From: a bacterium | Lineage (GTDB): Bacteria > Actinomycetota > Acidimicrobiia > Spongiisociales > ZC4RG35 | Length of the DNA: 64,000 nt | Assembly: GCA_028824015.1 (NCBI GenBank) | Contig: JAPPFC010000017.1 | Location: 205,945-269,944, forward strand | Direction: 5' to 3' | In this document: in pieces, positions 2,896-13,803 of the stretch | How the letters are laid out: every line of letters begins with the position of its first letter | Position numbering within the stretch: the stretch's first letter is position 1 | Translations under genes and position numbers: made by a program | The notes under the pieces: generated by a model | Databases searched by the model: none | What the model saw: only the letters and a program-made list of their open reading frames with translations | Told to the model about the DNA's origin: nothing

Positions 2896-3741
2896 CTATA
2901 CGGCCGCCACCTCTTCGTAGACCTCGGGCCGGCGGTCACGGTAGAAGGCCCAGTAGCGGCGCACCTCTTCCACCATGCCCAGGTCCAACTGGCGGATCAG
3001 CACCTCGTCCTCGGTGTCCGAGGCGGTCCCGCCCACTATCTCCCCGCGGGGATCGGCGAAGTAGGAGGAGCCGTAGTAGTCGGTGCCCTCGAGATCTTCG
3101 GCGCCCACCCGGTTGATGGCGCCGACGAAGTACTCGTTGGCGACCGCCGCGGCCGGCTGCTCCAACTGCCAGAGGTGTTTGGAGTGGCCCCGGGTGGTGG
3201 CGGAGGGGTTGAACACGATCCGGGCGCCCTTCAGGCCCAGCACCCTCCATCCCTCGGGGAAGTGGCGGTCATAGCAGATGTACACGCCGATCCTCCCCAC
3301 CGCAGTGTCGAAAACCGGGTAGCCCAGGTTGCCGGGCCGGAAGTAGAACTTCTCCCAAAATCCCAGCACCTGCGGTATGTGGGTCTTCCGATACTTGCCC
3401 AGGTAGGTACCGTCGGCGTCGATCACCGCCGCGGCGTTGAAGAAGGTGCCCTCGTCCACCACCTCGTATATGGGGACCACCATCACCATCCCGGTCTCTT
3501 TTGCCACGGCGATCATGCGTTGGATGGTCGGTCCGTCGGGTATCGGCTCTGCCCAGGAGTAATTGTCGCTGTCCTGAACCGTGCAGAAATAGGGGCTGTT
3601 GAAGATCTCCTGGAAACAGAGCACCTGGGCGCCCTGTTCGGCGGCGTCCCGGGCGTAGGAGATGTTCTTCTCCACCATGGACTCCTGGTCGCCGGTCCAC
3701 TCCGACTGGACCAGTGCGGCGCTCACCATTTGCTTGGACAT
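2896..3741 (-). CDS. Nitrilase-superfamily amidohydrolase, beta-ureidopropionase / N-carbamoyl hydrolase-like
   Basis: Glu-Lys-Cys layout: CFQEIFNSPYF, KYRKTHIPQ, GVYICYDRHFPEG. Confidence 0.88.
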   Translation of the reverse strand: MSKQMVSAALVQSEWTGDQESMVEKNISYARDAAEQGAQVLCFQEIFNSPYFCTVQDSDNYSWAEPIPDGPTIQRMIAVAKETGMVMVVPIYEVVDEGTFFNAAAVIDADGTYLGKYRKTHIPQVLGFWEKFYFRPGNLGYPVFDTAVGRIGVYICYDRHFPEGWRVLGLKGARIVFNPSATTRGHSKHLWQLEQPAAAVANEYFVGAINRVGAEDLEGTDYYGSSYFADPRGEIVGGTASDTEDEVLIRQLDLGMVEEVRRYWAFYRDRRPEVYEEVAAV

Positions 3742-3783
3742 GCAATCTCTCCTTCGCTGTAAGTCACATTCGGGTCCCGGCCA

Positions 3784-5301
3784 TCACGCGTCTTCGCTTG
3801 ACACTCCGGCCATCATCAGGCCGATTCCCTGCCGGTCGGCATCCTCGGCGCTCACCTCTCCCACGATGCGCCCCTCGTAGATGACTGCAATCCGGTCGGC
3901 CAAGCCCAGGATCTCGTCCAGGTCTTCGGAGATGAGCAGTATGGCGACCGACTTGGACCCGCGCTGCTCGATGAGCCGGTCGTGGATGTACTCGGCGGCC
4001 CCGATGTCCACTCCCCGGGTGGGTTGGGAAGCCAGCAGCACCGACGGTGAGCCGGAGAGTTCTCTGGCCAGGATCAGCTTCTGCAGGTTGCCTCCCGAGA
4101 GATTCGAGGCCGGAACGTCGAGTCCCGGGGTGGCGACGGAGAATTCATCCACCAGTTGCCGACTGCGTTGACGGATTTCTCCGTTGCGCAGGAAACCCCT
4201 CCGACTCATCGGAGGATGGCGATGGTTCACCAGGATCATGTTCTCAGAGACCGAGAAAGCTCCGATCGCGCCGTCCCGCTGGCGCTCCTCGGGAACATAG
4301 GCCAGCCCCGCCGCTCTGACCGTAGACGGTTTCTGGCCGGTTATGTCGGCGCCGTCGACTTCCACCGTGCCCGACTCAGGTTTCCGGAGACCGGCGATTG
4401 TCTCGGCCAACTCCCGCTGGCCGTTGCCGGAGACTCCGGCGATCCCCAGGATCTCTCCCTCCCGGACCGTCAGGCTCAGGTCTTGGAGGGCCGGCAGGCC
4501 CCGATCGCCCATCACGTTCAGGTTGCGGATGGTCAACCGGGCTCCCCCCGGCTCCATGGCCGGTTTGTCGGGAGCGAGTCGCACCGGACGCCCGACCATC
4601 ATGGAAGCCAGCATTTCGCGGGTGGCGTCTTGTGCCTCTACTTCTCCCATCACCCGCCCAAGGCGAAGCACGGTGATCCGGTCGCTGAGCGCCAGCACCT
4701 CGTGAAGCTTGTGGGAGATGAACACCAGACCTCGGCCGGCCCCGGCCATCTGCCGGAGGATCGTGAAGAGGTGATCCACCTCGCCGGGGGTGAGCACCGC
4801 GGTGGGCTCGTCCAACACCAGCAGTTTGACGTCGCGGTAAAGCGCTTTGATGATCTCGACCCGCTGGCGTTCTCCCACCGAGAGTTGCCAGATGTAGGCG
4901 TCCGGGTCAACCGCCAAGCCGTGAGACTCCGACAACTCCCGGACGCGATCGGAGACCTGCCGCAGATTCATACGCCCCCGCTTAGAGACGGTGCCCATCG
5001 CCACGTTCTCGGTGACCGTGAGAGAGGGCACCAGCATAAAGTGCTGATGCACCATCCCGATGCCGTGGTTAATTGCGTCGATCGGGCTGGTGATCCGGGT
5101 CGGAGCCCCCTCGATGAGGAGTTCGCCCTCGTCGGGCTGGTACAACCCGTAGAGGATCTTCATTAGGGTGCTCTTCCCGGCGCCGTTTTCTCCCAACAGG
5201 GTGTGCACCTCCCCGGCGCGCAGATCGAAGTTGACTCGATCATTGGCCAGCACGCCGGGGAAGCGCTTGACGATATCCCGCATCTCCAGGAGTTGCGTCA
5301 T
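3784..5301 (-). CDS. ABC transporter ATP-binding protein (double ABC domain, BMP/nucleoside import type)
   Basis: GENGAGKST Walker A, LSVGERQRVEI and LSGGNLQKLILAREL signatures, LLASQPTRGVDIGA; next to BMP and permease genes. Confidence 0.92.
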   Translation of the reverse strand: MTQLLEMRDIVKRFPGVLANDRVNFDLRAGEVHTLLGENGAGKSTLMKILYGLYQPDEGELLIEGAPTRITSPIDAINHGIGMVHQHFMLVPSLTVTENVAMGTVSKRGRMNLRQVSDRVRELSESHGLAVDPDAYIWQLSVGERQRVEIIKALYRDVKLLVLDEPTAVLTPGEVDHLFTILRQMAGAGRGLVFISHKLHEVLALSDRITVLRLGRVMGEVEAQDATREMLASMMVGRPVRLAPDKPAMEPGGARLTIRNLNVMGDRGLPALQDLSLTVREGEILGIAGVSGNGQRELAETIAGLRKPESGTVEVDGADITGQKPSTVRAAGLAYVPEERQRDGAIGAFSVSENMILVNHRHPPMSRRGFLRNGEIRQRSRQLVDEFSVATPGLDVPASNLSGGNLQKLILARELSGSPSVLLASQPTRGVDIGAAEYIHDRLIEQRGSKSVAILLISEDLDEILGLADRIAVIYEGRIVGEVSAEDADRQGIGLMMAGVSSEDA

Positions 5302-5335
5302 CGTTCCGTCACCCTGTTGGTTCCTTTCTATTGGG

Positions 5336-7360
5336 CTAGTTGGCGCCGGTGTCGATGGCGCCGGTGATGATTCCCTGGATCACCTCGTTGATCCCGGCGA
5401 ACATCTCAGGTGGTATATCAAAGGCCGGGTTGGGCTCCAAGACCAGTCCGCCGTTGGCGAGGTTGATCTCGTAGGCCTTGCCGCCCAGTGAACCGGCGGA
5501 GATGTCGGCGATGATCTGTCGCAGCACGACTTCCCACTTGTACACCTGGGATGCCACCACCAGGTCGGGCGCCAGGGCGGTCTGGTTGGCCTGGGTGCCG
5601 AACCACAGAGCGCCGGCGGTCTGGGCGACTCCGACCGCGCCGACCACCATCTGGGCCGATCCGGTCAGGACGTCCGCGCCGGCCGCGATGTGTGCCTGGG
5701 CGGCTTCGGAAGCCAACGCCACGTCACTGAACGAACCGATGTAGTTGATAAGAACGGTCACGTCGGGACCGGTGGCTACCGCTCCGTTGTGGAACCCGTC
5801 CACGTACAGCTTGGCGTCGCCCACCTCGATGGGACCGACCACGCCGATGACACTGGACTGGGAAAGGGCCGCGGCCACAACTCCCATCACAAAACCGCCC
5901 TGATCGGAGGCGGCGGTGTAGGCGGAGACGTTGGGCTGACCCAGCGTGTCGGCGGAGGTGCCCCACGCGAAGGCGGTGTCGGGGAAGTCCCCGGCGATCT
6001 CCTGCAGCGATCCTCCGTACTGGGAACCGTGGGCGATGACCAGGTCGTAGCCTTCCTCGGCGTACCCGCGGATGGCCGCGGCGGCGTCCTCGACTATGAA
6101 GGTCCCGTCGGTGATGGCCACCTCGGTGCCAGGCTGCTCCGCCACGATCACGTTCACCGCGTCCACGATGCTCTGCGTGAACGCCAGGTCATTGGAAGCG
6201 CTCGGGGCAACCACCGCGATCCGCAACGGCTCCATCGGCGCGGGCGGCGCCGCCATGGCTTCCATGGTGTTGATGGCGCCACTGACGATTCCGGATATGA
6301 CGATGTCGGCGCCGGCTCGGACCTCGGTGGGGAGGTTGAAGCCGTCGTTGAACTCGATCACCAACCCGCCGTTGGCGAGGTTGATCTCGTAGGCCTTGCC
6401 GCCCAGTGAACCGGCGGAGATGTCGGCGATGATCTGTCGCAGCACGACTTCCCACTTGTACACCTGGGATGCCACCACCAGGTCGGGCGCCAGGGCGGTC
6501 TGGTTGGCCTGGGTGCCGAACCACAGAGCGCCGGCGGTCTGGGCGACTCCGACCGCGCCGACCACCATCTGGGCCGATCCGGTCAGGACGTCCGCGCCGG
6601 CCGCGATGTGTGCCTGGGCGGCTTCGGAAGCCAACGCCACGTCACTGAACGAACCGATGTAGTTGATAAGAACGGTCACGTCGGGACCGGTGGCTACCGC
6701 TCCGTTGTGGAACCCGTCCACGTACAGCTTGGCGTCGCCCACCTCGATGGGACCGACCACGCCGATGACACTGGACTGGGAAAGGGCCGCGGCCACAACT
6801 CCCATCACAAAACCGCCCTGATCGGAGGCGGCGGTGTAGGCGGAGACGTTGGGCTGACCCAGCGTGTCGGCGGAGGTGCCCCACGCGAAGGCGGTGTCGG
6901 GGAAGTCCCCGGCGATCTCCTGCAGCGATCCTCCGTACTGGGAACCGTGGGCGATGACCAGGTCGTAGCCTTCCTCGGCGTACCCGCGGATGGCCGCGGC
7001 GGCGTCCTCGACTATGAAGGTCCCGTCGGTGATGGCCACCTCGGTACCCGGGTTCTCAGCCACGATCACGTTCACCGCGTCCACGATGCTCTGCGTGAAT
7101 GCCAGGTCGTTGGATGCGCTCGGGGCAACCACCGCGATGCGCAGCGGCTCCATCGGCATGTCCTCTTCGGGCATGTCTTCCTCGGGCATGTCCTCTTCGG
7201 GCATGTCCTCTTCGGGCGCCTCGGCGGCGGTCGTTTGAGGGGCGGCAGCCTCGGTGGTGGTGGGCTCCTCAGCGTCGTCTCCGCAGGCGGTGGCTATCAG
7301 AGCCAGGACCGCCAAGACGGCCAAAAGCCGGGCGAAACCCGGTTTCCTATGGGTAAGCAT
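5336..7360 (-). CDS. BMP-family substrate-binding lipoprotein with two tandem BMP domains
   Basis: Lipobox LIATACGDD after ATG at 7360; the block LRIAVVAPSASNDLAFTQSIVDAVNVIVAE...GKAYEINLANGG occurs twice in one ORF. Confidence 0.88.
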   Translation of the reverse strand: MLTHRKPGFARLLAVLAVLALIATACGDDAEEPTTTEAAAPQTTAAEAPEEDMPEEDMPEEDMPEEDMPMEPLRIAVVAPSASNDLAFTQSIVDAVNVIVAENPGTEVAITDGTFIVEDAAAAIRGYAEEGYDLVIAHGSQYGGSLQEIAGDFPDTAFAWGTSADTLGQPNVSAYTAASDQGGFVMGVVAAALSQSSVIGVVGPIEVGDAKLYVDGFHNGAVATGPDVTVLINYIGSFSDVALASEAAQAHIAAGADVLTGSAQMVVGAVGVAQTAGALWFGTQANQTALAPDLVVASQVYKWEVVLRQIIADISAGSLGGKAYEINLANGGLVIEFNDGFNLPTEVRAGADIVISGIVSGAINTMEAMAAPPAPMEPLRIAVVAPSASNDLAFTQSIVDAVNVIVAEQPGTEVAITDGTFIVEDAAAAIRGYAEEGYDLVIAHGSQYGGSLQEIAGDFPDTAFAWGTSADTLGQPNVSAYTAASDQGGFVMGVVAAALSQSSVIGVVGPIEVGDAKLYVDGFHNGAVATGPDVTVLINYIGSFSDVALASEAAQAHIAAGADVLTGSAQMVVGAVGVAQTAGALWFGTQANQTALAPDLVVASQVYKWEVVLRQIIADISAGSLGGKAYEINLANGGLVLEPNPAFDIPPEMFAGINEVIQGIITGAIDTGAN
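5449..6127. repeat. Copy A of an internal 918-bp-period repeat within the BMP gene
   Basis: Line-by-line reading matches 6367..7045 with no differences found; flanks are diverged but homologous. Confidence 0.93.
6367..7045. repeat. Copy B of the internal 918-bp-period repeat within the BMP gene
   Basis: Identical to 5449..6127 by eye. Confidence 0.93.
7155..7219. repeat. 15-bp tandem repeat encoding (E)EDMP x4 linker
   Basis: gggcatgtcctcttc-type units; protein EEDMPEEDMPEEDMPEEDMP after the lipobox. Confidence 0.85.
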
Positions 7361-7413
7361 TGGTTCTGCTCCTTGGGTTGAGAGGTTTATTGGTTGTCGA
7401 GTGAGAAATCTCA

Positions 7414-8355
7414 TTATCCCCCCCTGATGAAAGGCTTGGTGAGGGCAGTTGGCGCCCTGAATCGGCGGGCGGCCACCACCAACGCCAGCACCGTTATCAC
7501 CGCAGGGATCATGGCGGCCAGGTCGGAGGCGCCCAGCGGGATGATGCCCCTGGTCTTGAGCAGCAACACTACCGCCGACACCATCCCGTAGACCAGTGAC
7601 CCGGCCATCACTCCCAGGGGTCTCCATGCGCCGAAGTAGACCAGGGCGATGGCGATGAAGCCCTGGGCATTGGTGAGGTTCTGCTGGAAGATGCCCAGCC
7701 CGATGGCCAGCACCGCTCCGGCCGCTCCGGCGAGGATTCCTCCGATCGTCACCGCCGCGTAGCGGACCCTCGTCACGCTGATGCCCTGGGAGTCGGCCGC
7801 CTCCGGGTTTTCTCCCACTGCGCGGATGTTCATCCCGAACCGGGTCCGATTGATGATCACCGTGGAGACCGGGATGGCCAGGAAAGCGAGGTAGATGGGG
7901 ATGCTGTGATTGAAGAACAGGTCTCCCACCACGGGGATCTCCGAGAGGAAGGGTATGGGGGACTTCTGGAAAGAGGCGGCGGGCAGGGGAGTCCCCACCA
8001 GCTTCTGGAACAGCAGGTCACTCATCCCCAGCCCGAACAGGTAGACGCCGATTCCGCTGATGCCCTGCTCAGCCAGAAGGGAGACGCTGATCACCGAGGA
8101 GAGAAGTCCCAGGACCAGCCCGACTCCCAACCCGACCGCCAATCCCAGCCAGGGGCTCTGGGTCTTGAGCGTTGTGAAATAGCCGCCGAACGCCCCCAGG
8201 AGCATGATCCCGTCCACTCCCAGGTTGAGGACTCCGCTCCTTTGCCCGAATGCCTCTCCCAGGGAGGCCAGCAGTAGCGGGACCGCCAGCCGGATCCCGG
8301 ACGAGAGGGTGGCCACTATAACCGTGGCGCTGAAGATGTCAGCCATGTTCGTCAT
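7414..8355 (-). CDS. ABC transporter permease (BMP/nucleoside family)
   Basis: Multi-TM; FGQRSGVLNLGVDGIMLLGAFGGYF and VGENPEAADSQGISVTRVRY typical of nucleoside ABC permeases. Confidence 0.9.
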   Translation of the reverse strand: MTNMADIFSATVIVATLSSGIRLAVPLLLASLGEAFGQRSGVLNLGVDGIMLLGAFGGYFTTLKTQSPWLGLAVGLGVGLVLGLLSSVISVSLLAEQGISGIGVYLFGLGMSDLLFQKLVGTPLPAASFQKSPIPFLSEIPVVGDLFFNHSIPIYLAFLAIPVSTVIINRTRFGMNIRAVGENPEAADSQGISVTRVRYAAVTIGGILAGAAGAVLAIGLGIFQQNLTNAQGFIAIALVYFGAWRPLGVMAGSLVYGMVSAVVLLLKTRGIIPLGASDLAAMIPAVITVLALVVAARRFRAPTALTKPFIRGG

Positions 8356-9577
8356 CCTCCCCGGATGGAGGCGAGTCGGGTTCGTCGCTCTCGGACGCCG
8401 CGGCGGCTATCGAAGAGACGCTCCGCTCCTCTCGCTCTTTCAGTTGTCGGCGGTACCGGTCGAGGCTCACCACGAACAGGACGACCAGCCCGTTGAGCGC
8501 CAGCACCAGGGCGGTGGGGACCTGTGCCGCCCTCTGCAGGGCGATCGCACCCACCAGCAGGCCTCCGAACAGGAACGACGAGGGAATCGTCCAGAGGGGG
8601 TGCAGGCCGCCGAAGAGCGCCGTCACTATCCCGTTGAACCCCGCGCTCCCGGTGAACCCGATGGTGCTCCCGTCGGTCACCATCCGGTGTCCCTCGGATC
8701 CCAGCACCAGGATTGCGCCCGCCAGCCCGGACATTGCCCCGCTGAGTGTCAAGGCCCAGACCACGTTCTTCTCCACCGACATCCCCGCATAGCGGGCTGC
8801 GTCGGCGGAAAGGCCGACCGCCCGCAGACGGTAGCCGGAGGTTGTTCTCCACAGCAGCACATACACGAGGACCGCCGCCCCCACCGCGATCAAGGGTCCA
8901 ATGTGAAGCCGCCCACCCTCCACGAACAGCGGCAGGTCGGTGCTTTCGGGCAAGCGGGCGGTCTGGGGAATCCGGGTGCCCCGTTCGATCTCCATCGGGT
9001 CGATGAGAGGGTCTCTGAGCAGCCAGTTCATAGCCTGCACCGCCACCACGTTGAGCATGATGGTGCTGAGGATCTCGTTCACCCCGAAGTAGGCCTTCAG
9101 CGCTCCGGGAATGGCGCCCCAGAGCGCTCCTCCCGCCACTCCGGCCGCCAGCGACAGCGGCAGGGCTATCCAGGCCGGAACGTCCGTCATCCCCAGGGCG
9201 GTAATGGTGGAGGCCAGCGCTCCCGACACCATCTGGCCCTCCCCTCCGATGTTGATCACATTTGCCCGGAAGGCGATGGTGATGCCCACTCCCACCAGTA
9301 GGAGGGGAGTTGACTTCAGAGCCGTCTCCACCAGGGCGCCCGAACTCCCGAACGCCCCCTTGGCCATTGCCCAGAAACCGGTGAAGGGATTGGCGCCCAA
9401 CGCCGCCAGCATCACCGCGCCGATAGCAAACGCGCCCAGCACGGCCAGCACCGGCACGCTGTAGGACAGTAAGTGGGAACCCAGACGGGAACGGCGCACC
9501 GCGGCCTCCGAGGGTTCCCGGGAAGTCATCCCGTTCCACCCCCGGGCGCTTCGAGAAGGGTTCTGTGGACGAGCCAC
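8339..9577 (-). CDS. ABC transporter permease (BMP/nucleoside family)
   Basis: Multi-TM; FRANVINIGGEGQMVSGALAS, GVNEILSTIMLN. Confidence 0.9.
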   Translation of the reverse strand: MARPQNPSRSARGWNGMTSREPSEAAVRRSRLGSHLLSYSVPVLAVLGAFAIGAVMLAALGANPFTGFWAMAKGAFGSSGALVETALKSTPLLLVGVGITIAFRANVINIGGEGQMVSGALASTITALGMTDVPAWIALPLSLAAGVAGGALWGAIPGALKAYFGVNEILSTIMLNVVAVQAMNWLLRDPLIDPMEIERGTRIPQTARLPESTDLPLFVEGGRLHIGPLIAVGAAVLVYVLLWRTTSGYRLRAVGLSADAARYAGMSVEKNVVWALTLSGAMSGLAGAILVLGSEGHRMVTDGSTIGFTGSAGFNGIVTALFGGLHPLWTIPSSFLFGGLLVGAIALQRAAQVPTALVLALNGLVVLFVVSLDRYRRQLKEREERSVSSIAAAASESDEPDSPPSGEDDEHG

Positions 9578-9606
9578 TTTGAGAAGGGTCTCTTCACAAT
9601 GTGGAC

Positions 9607-10203
9607 CTAATCACCGCGAATGGCGTTCAGATAGTTGTAAATGGTAATTCGGCTGACTCCCATCGCCTCGGCCACGGTCTCCACCGACTTGCGGATCAGG
9701 AAGACCCCCTGCTCATCGAGAATGCGTACCGCCGCCTGCTTCTTCTCCCTGGGCAAGTCGCCCAACTTGCCCCCCATCCGGGTTTCCACGACCGCCACGA
9801 TCCGCTCCACCGCTCCGTGGATGTCTTCGGGCCGGGCCAACCCGATCATCGCCTGGTTCCAGACCGCCGGTTCATCGGAGACCGGGTCGTCGCTCGGGGC
9901 GGGGCCGACCGCTTCGGAGAACGGGCCGACCGATGGATCTGCGGGGCTTTTGGTCAGGGTGATGGAGATCCGGGAAGCTCCCTTTTCGAAGGCGGATCTG
10001 AGCACTGTTGGCAAGACCGAAGTTAACGTCTCGTAGTCGCCATCCACGGTGTTTCCGAAGGGCCCCATCGTCATCTCCAGGCCGTGACGTTGCAGGATGT
10101 CCAGGGTCCCGAGTACGTGTGGACCGGGGTTCCCCTCCTCGAATGGCTCGACCAGGTACTCAAGCCTGCACTTTTCTCGGTCTGCGGGTTGTTCAGGTTT
10201 CAT
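9607..10203 (-). CDS. Transcriptional regulator: N-terminal YkoF/thiamine-binding-like domain plus C-terminal YheO/DauR-type HTH
   Basis: N-terminus GLEMTMGPFGNTVDGDYETLTSVLPTVLRSAFEKGASRISITLT resembles YkoF-like domains; C-terminus QGVFLIRKSVETVAEAMGVSRITIYNYLN is a YheO-like HTH. Confidence 0.72.
   Translation of the reverse strand: MKPEQPADREKCRLEYLVEPFEEGNPGPHVLGTLDILQRHGLEMTMGPFGNTVDGDYETLTSVLPTVLRSAFEKGASRISITLTKSPADPSVGPFSEAVGPAPSDDPVSDEPAVWNQAMIGLARPEDIHGAVERIVAVVETRMGGKLGDLPREKKQAAVRILDEQGVFLIRKSVETVAEAMGVSRITIYNYLNAIRGD

Positions 10204-11211: not shown

Positions 11212-13803
<2,592 letters not shown>

Follow-up and report, generated by a model that had tools for sequence, protein, structure and literature searches.

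Can a lipoprotein that carries two nearly identical substrate-binding domains be a genuine tandem receptor, or does such a gene reflect the assembly or a passing duplication? The question is raised by a minus-strand open reading frame (ORF) at 5336..7360 of the window, the 64,000-nucleotide stretch of DNA analysed here, from a sponge-type bacterium of the Acidimicrobiia. With its ATG at 7360, this ORF encodes a double-BMP substrate-binding lipoprotein (P0001) of 674 aa, and both of its halves match the Bmp domain (PF02608; 241.3 bits vs a cut-off of 24.1, in two stretches). A single domain is usual, if not strictly defining, for BMP lipoproteins, as the first-pass annotation stated, and this receptor departs from it. 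In a wider search of the phylum (149 genomes, 61 with Bmp matches), two strong Bmp matches within one frame were found in the window's own ORF and in no other. It is considered probable that the gene encodes a genuine tandem receptor, with one lipid anchor and two BMP/PnrA-fold domains serving one importer. In this reading, the domain was duplicated in frame before the species of the genus split, the core of the two copies has since been homogenised by exchange in both directions, and the tails have escaped.

The receptor, its repeat and its importer

Base-by-base comparison of the window with itself at an offset of 918 reveals an unbroken identical run of 680 bases (5448-6127 = 6366-7045). 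The 918-bp period keeps the reading frame, and both copies lie within the single ORF. Chance can be rejected as the origin of an exact repeat of this length. The first-pass annotation had recognized the identity and had placed both halves in one ORF with a single signal peptide and lipobox; both points hold, with starts (5449 and 6367) that were one base short. A longer, 763-aa frame beginning at 7627 is not likely to mark the receptor start, since it would overlap the permease gene.

The protein begins with its one signal peptide and one lipobox-like site, LIATAC (residues 1-26, ..ALIATAC; 7283..7360, minus strand, as are the features that follow), modeled as a helix at residues 9-24 and then disorder. 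A long, acidic, low-complexity tether (residues 27-70; 7151..7282) comes next, with pLDDT values below 50 for residues 26-68. Within the tether are four 15-bp tandem repeats encoding EEDMP (7155-7214), whose number could vary. Domain A (residues 71-365; 6266..7150) and domain B (residues 377-671; 5348..6232) are each recognized by Pfam Bmp and by our own profile HMM, and domain A is assigned the PnrA/AtzT fold. Between the two HMM matches lies a linker of ~11 residues (366-376; 6233..6265), modeled with low confidence at residues 370-375.

Each half can be divided into a core, the first ~261 codons, and a tail, the last ~32 codons. The exact run defines the homogenised core of domain A (6366..7045) and of domain B (5448..6127), and the unhomogenised tails are at 6266..6358 (A-type) and 5348..5440 (B-type). 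On the N-terminal side, the ~113 bp ahead of the exact run are still ~91% identical between the halves, and residues 71-334 of domain A differ from domain B by a single amino acid (N103/Q). In the C-terminal ~100 bp, which contain nearly all of the A/B differences, identity falls to ~50-60%, and from residue 335 onward the halves differ at well over half of the residues. Thus, of the two ends of each half that had been described as diverged, only the C-terminal end is so; true divergence is confined to the C-terminal ~32 residues. The 680-bp identity and the copy number of two are given for this genome as assembled, in a 60-contig draft.

The receptor is the product of the third of four genes in a leftward-read, BMP-type ABC operon, in the order permease, permease, receptor, ATPase. 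The two BPD_transp_2 permeases (PF02653), of 412 aa (8339..9577, minus strand) and 313 aa (7414..8355, minus strand), have as their best NCBIfam matches B6 permease 2 and B6 permease 1, respectively. The 505-aa ATPase (3784..5301, minus strand) has two nucleotide-binding domains (PF00005 twice) and best matches NF047930. Two such permeases together with a double ATPase are the operon type expected for BMP/PnrA-like receptors. The NCBIfam models of a putative B6 transporter (NF047927-NF047930) are the best named matches for all four subunits, each of which scores below its curated cut-off (receptor, 218.7 vs 400; ATPase, 519 vs 670; permeases, 194 vs 465 and 171 vs 400). B6 or riboflavin transporter is therefore rejected as a firm label. 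The putative B6 receptor family NF047927, the best-scoring named family for the receptor, also has one domain rather than two. The nucleoside and riboflavin receptors PnrA, BmpD and RfuA share the BMP fold and the operon type, but are likewise single-domain proteins.

An AlphaFold model of the receptor (pLDDT 82) has the two-lobed periplasmic-binding fold of PnrA and AtzT, and Foldseek matches it to 6pi5, 3s99, 6yag, 2fqw and 4iil (each with prob 1.00). The nearest solved structures are AtzT and the Brucella basic membrane lipoprotein 3s99, a member of the BMP family, rather than PnrA. These share the fold (TM-score by target ~0.78), but each has a single domain, and they are only ~22-24% identical to the present receptor, the ligand of which is a prediction. 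AtzT retains guanine, which is sandwiched between Tyr45 and Trp194 and held by Glu165, Asn218, Asn220 and Ser97 (PMC6834077). By sequence alignment the equivalent positions are F88, F238, D209, S262, Q264 and G139/S140, so that the aromatic sandwich, the acid (D209) and the amide (Q264) have counterparts. All of these positions lie outside the tails and are identical in domains A and B. From the likeness to the AtzT pocket, a purine base or a similar N-heterocycle is the most likely ligand, and both domains would be expected to bind it.

The genes around the operon include two carbon-nitrogen hydrolases, an SsnA-like aminohydrolase and a protein resembling xanthine dehydrogenase (11212-13803), which scores 818.6 bits where the model of the Se-dependent type requires 830; the last two genes are consistent with purine catabolism. 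A small regulator with Thiamine_BP (UPF0045-like) and HTH_22 domains (9607-10203) adjoins the receptor operon; it is retained in G001, a genome of the same genus that has no importer. There the whole importer module (3755..9595) is cleanly missing, as seen by DNA search and at the junction, where the nitrilase-side and regulator-side flanks are joined with ~24 bp between them. Records labeled Desulfobacterota fall within the group that a domain tree places as sister to the window lineage (support 0.87). Taken with the clean absence from G001, this makes acquisition of the module by horizontal transfer possible.

Reality of the two-domain architecture

Near-identical copies can be merged by assemblers, and the first-pass annotation had cautioned that an artefact must be excluded first. 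In such an artefact, a short-read assembler would either have duplicated a single-domain gene or have collapsed two diverged halves into one identical consensus. The setting allows for this: the window belongs to a draft, draft metagenomes are likewise the source of most other doubles, and 680 bp is longer than the usual short read. In addition, the window and the genome G003 have a nearly identical stretch in common, being 97-100% identical over window positions ~5500-8200 and ~88-94% identical in the flanking DNA, with further 100% blocks near 2800, at 3400-3600 and at 8800-9000. This stretch reflects either a recent exchange between strains or a shared sample assembly; given the near-identity over 5.5-8.2 kb, the two genomes are not independent.

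However, of five further genomes in the genus, four encode the full-length double protein (86-100% identical), the related genomes being where the first-pass annotation had proposed looking. One of these, MPNA bin76, comes from a study of Aplysina aerophoba in which Illumina and PacBio reads were co-assembled with k-mers up to 127 (PMC5649159). Its two halves are diverged (86% identical), and their longest exact run, 80 bp, is shorter than the largest k-mer, so that an unresolved repeat cannot have produced the double gene. In a second lineage (genus g166), the double is resolved in three genomes, while contigs of five assemblies (G387, G445, G446, G444 and G440) end exactly inside the gene, as would happen if assembly failed to resolve a genuine long identical repeat. 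Finally, the A-tail and the B-tail are distinct, and both are conserved from species to species, a pattern that duplication of one gene cannot yield. The two-domain architecture is genuine, simple duplication by the assembler is rejected, and an artefact of either kind is now very improbable. The caution thus retains its force for the length of the exact identity in the window, which rests on the draft assembly; in this genome alone, the two copies may have been partially merged.

Homogenised cores and preserved tails

The history of the two halves can be read by comparing the four distinguishable species of the genus (L001, the window; L010; L011; and L012). At 4-fold degenerate sites in the core, differences between A and B of the same genome are 0.04, 0.07, 0 and 0.18, vs 0.17-0.40 between species. 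(The corresponding comparison for permease 2 was left out because its counts were unreliable, probably from misaligned codons.) In the core, 62 sites have A = B in all four species yet differ among species, and none is fixed by paralogue; in the tail, 15 sites are fixed by paralogue and none is concerted. Accordingly, the core tree pairs the halves by genome, and a paralogue tree is rejected (IQ-TREE AU test, delta lnL 301). The tail tree groups sequences by position, A-tails with A-tails and B-tails with B-tails in all four species, and a species-pair tree is rejected (AU test, delta lnL 141). Together the trees indicate that the fusion is older than the species of the genus and that the core has been homogenised repeatedly since. 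That this genome underwent only one, very recent duplication is rejected, because the A and B tails are common to the three other species.

Paralogues that are closer than orthologues within a bounded tract are the signature of concerted evolution by intragenic exchange. Exchange ran both ways: of the 76 core positions at which L012 keeps A and B distinct, 27 carry the A state in both halves of the window's receptor and 39 carry the B state in both. L010 has an unconverted B-type patch at codons ~105-127, like that of L012 B, which is gone from the window, and outside the tails A and B still differ at core sites in both L010 and L012. Even relative to G003, the window's near-twin, the sole core substitution is common to both halves. 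The tail boundary falls at the same spot (codon ~261) in three species. Amino-acid identity between species exceeds the expectation from 4-fold sites, which places both halves under purifying selection. The first-pass annotation had offered recent gene conversion between fused paralogues and a real tandem-receptor lipoprotein feeding one ABC channel as alternatives. The second is borne out by the four further genomes of the genus that carry the double, the hybrid long-read assembly among them; conversion is borne out by the core/tail pattern in every species, but must be called recurrent rather than recent, as the fusion predates the species split. A search of the open-access literature found nothing relevant on gene conversion in the BMP family or on a double-BMP lipoprotein.

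In the proposed sequence of events, an in-frame tandem duplication of the domain would have occurred in a common ancestor of the genus's known species. RecA-type exchange between the copies, by gene conversion or by duplication-deletion via unequal crossing-over, would then re-equalise the first ~260 codons; either process would give the same picture here. The last ~32 codons would escape exchange, probably because they are too diverged. The simplest explanation of the boundary at codon ~261 is that sequences only 50-60% identical do not recombine. The tails may also be under selection, as the A-tail must enter the linker and the B-tail ends the protein.

Two-domain BMP receptors are not confined to this genus. 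In the domain tree, doubles occupy at least four separate positions among single-domain BMPs (the window genus, L036/L039, L037/L038 and L040), and an additional double, L031, lies in a different BMP branch. In lineage III (L037/L038, g166), the cores are 98.6-100% identical within genomes vs 93-97% between them, and the tails are 72-77% identical within genomes vs 91-100% between them. By these sequence comparisons, a concerted core with paralogous tails has at least one further, independent origin in another lineage. Lineages IV and V have near-perfect duplicates over 878 and 947 bp, 100% identical through almost the whole tail; either these arose very recently or, since each is known from a single draft genome, they are less certain. 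The L031 double (L031:1453-3561, genome G045), of a second BMP subfamily, has a 947-bp exact repeat with a 969-bp period.

Other arrangements of BMP domains were also found. L043 has two BMP genes that are separate but adjacent, possibly a pre-fusion state. Some Chloroflexota records join a BMP domain to a second, BMP-like domain that has diverged strongly (L106:5830-8028; also L060 and L098). One lipoprotein (G365; L144:7906-10074) fuses BMP to SBP_bac_8, a PotD-like domain, and is flanked on one side by a PotABC-like gene set and on the other by a BMP-type permease/ATPase set. In another protein (G313; L145:3-1907), BMP is fused to a Phosphonate-bd domain and followed by an ABC ATPase; this fusion begins at a contig edge, leaving its signal peptide out of view. 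Both resemble the present receptor in joining BMP to a second receptor on one chain, but their second domain is from another family and, unlike the receptor here, they adjoin parts of a second transporter. Relatives keep the partner genes apart, so that each of these fusions rests on one draft genome.

These findings bear on two other readings of the repeat. In one, the domains would divide labour as in GlnPQ, differing in specificity or partner through the diverged B-tail, with homogenisation of the core as a neutral by-product. The conservation of two distinct tail types in all four species would fit, as would the A/B differences that L010 and L012 retain in the core. However, the equivalents of the AtzT guanine pocket all lie outside the tails and do not differ between A and B, and the halves of lineages IV and V are alike even through nearly all of the tail; such a division is quite unlikely. 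In the other reading, the receptor is not a fixed tandem: cells switch among one, two and three domains, which makes the locus variable within the population. Because 918 is a multiple of 3, the frame would survive gain or loss of a copy; exact repeats, 680-947 bp in length, are present in separate lineages; and duplication-deletion would also yield a homogenised core with preserved tails. Against this, no one- or three-domain version was found in the genus, each resolved case in the same lineage has exactly two domains, and both halves are held by purifying selection. Copy-number switching is accordingly judged unlikely.

A more general proposal can be made only tentatively, and is doubtful as it stands: that BMP domains have doubled independently at least four to five times, and have twice been fused to receptors of other families, as part of a recurrent and selected multiplication of receptors on a shared anchor in Acidimicrobiia and their relatives. 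The need of importers for interchangeable sites would then keep up concerted evolution, leaving only the C-terminal tail free to specialise.

A probable tandem receptor on one anchor

In most known tandem receptors, GlnPQ among them, the domains are fused to the channel. In the Lactococcus lactis protein, tandem substrate-binding domains are joined by a flexible linker of 14 residues and act largely independently, and the two domains per chain place four binding sites near the translocation pathway (PMC8025302). The receptor described here likewise has two receptor domains in tandem on each chain, a short linker (~11 residues) and one importer. It differs in that the GlnPQ tandem is covalently fused to the membrane domain, whereas this receptor is a separate protein with its own lipobox-like site, encoded apart from its permeases. 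In addition, it belongs to another receptor class, and the domains of GlnPQ differ in specificity, whereas the predicted pockets here are identical and the core is homogenised. It is thus most likely a lipoprotein counterpart of GlnPQ-type tandem receptors, in which one lipid-anchored protein offers two equivalent, purine-base-like sites to one importer.

Under the tandem-receptor reading, two sites for the same ligand would take turns docking on the permeases. By analogy with GlnPQ, the second domain may raise the number of loaded receptors per anchor, and with it their local supply to the importer. The finding is well supported. The transport mechanism itself would be of a known kind, that of a tandem ABC receptor; what is unexpected is the recurrent origin of such receptors and the combination of a concerted core with preserved tails. 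As a bacterial case of concerted evolution the locus is clean, being confined to a single gene and sharply bounded. There is a practical warning as well: short-read assembly breaks genes of this kind and may merge their copies. For the biology of ABC import, a lipoprotein tandem with equal predicted sites would offer a natural test of whether the number of receptors per anchor limits uptake.
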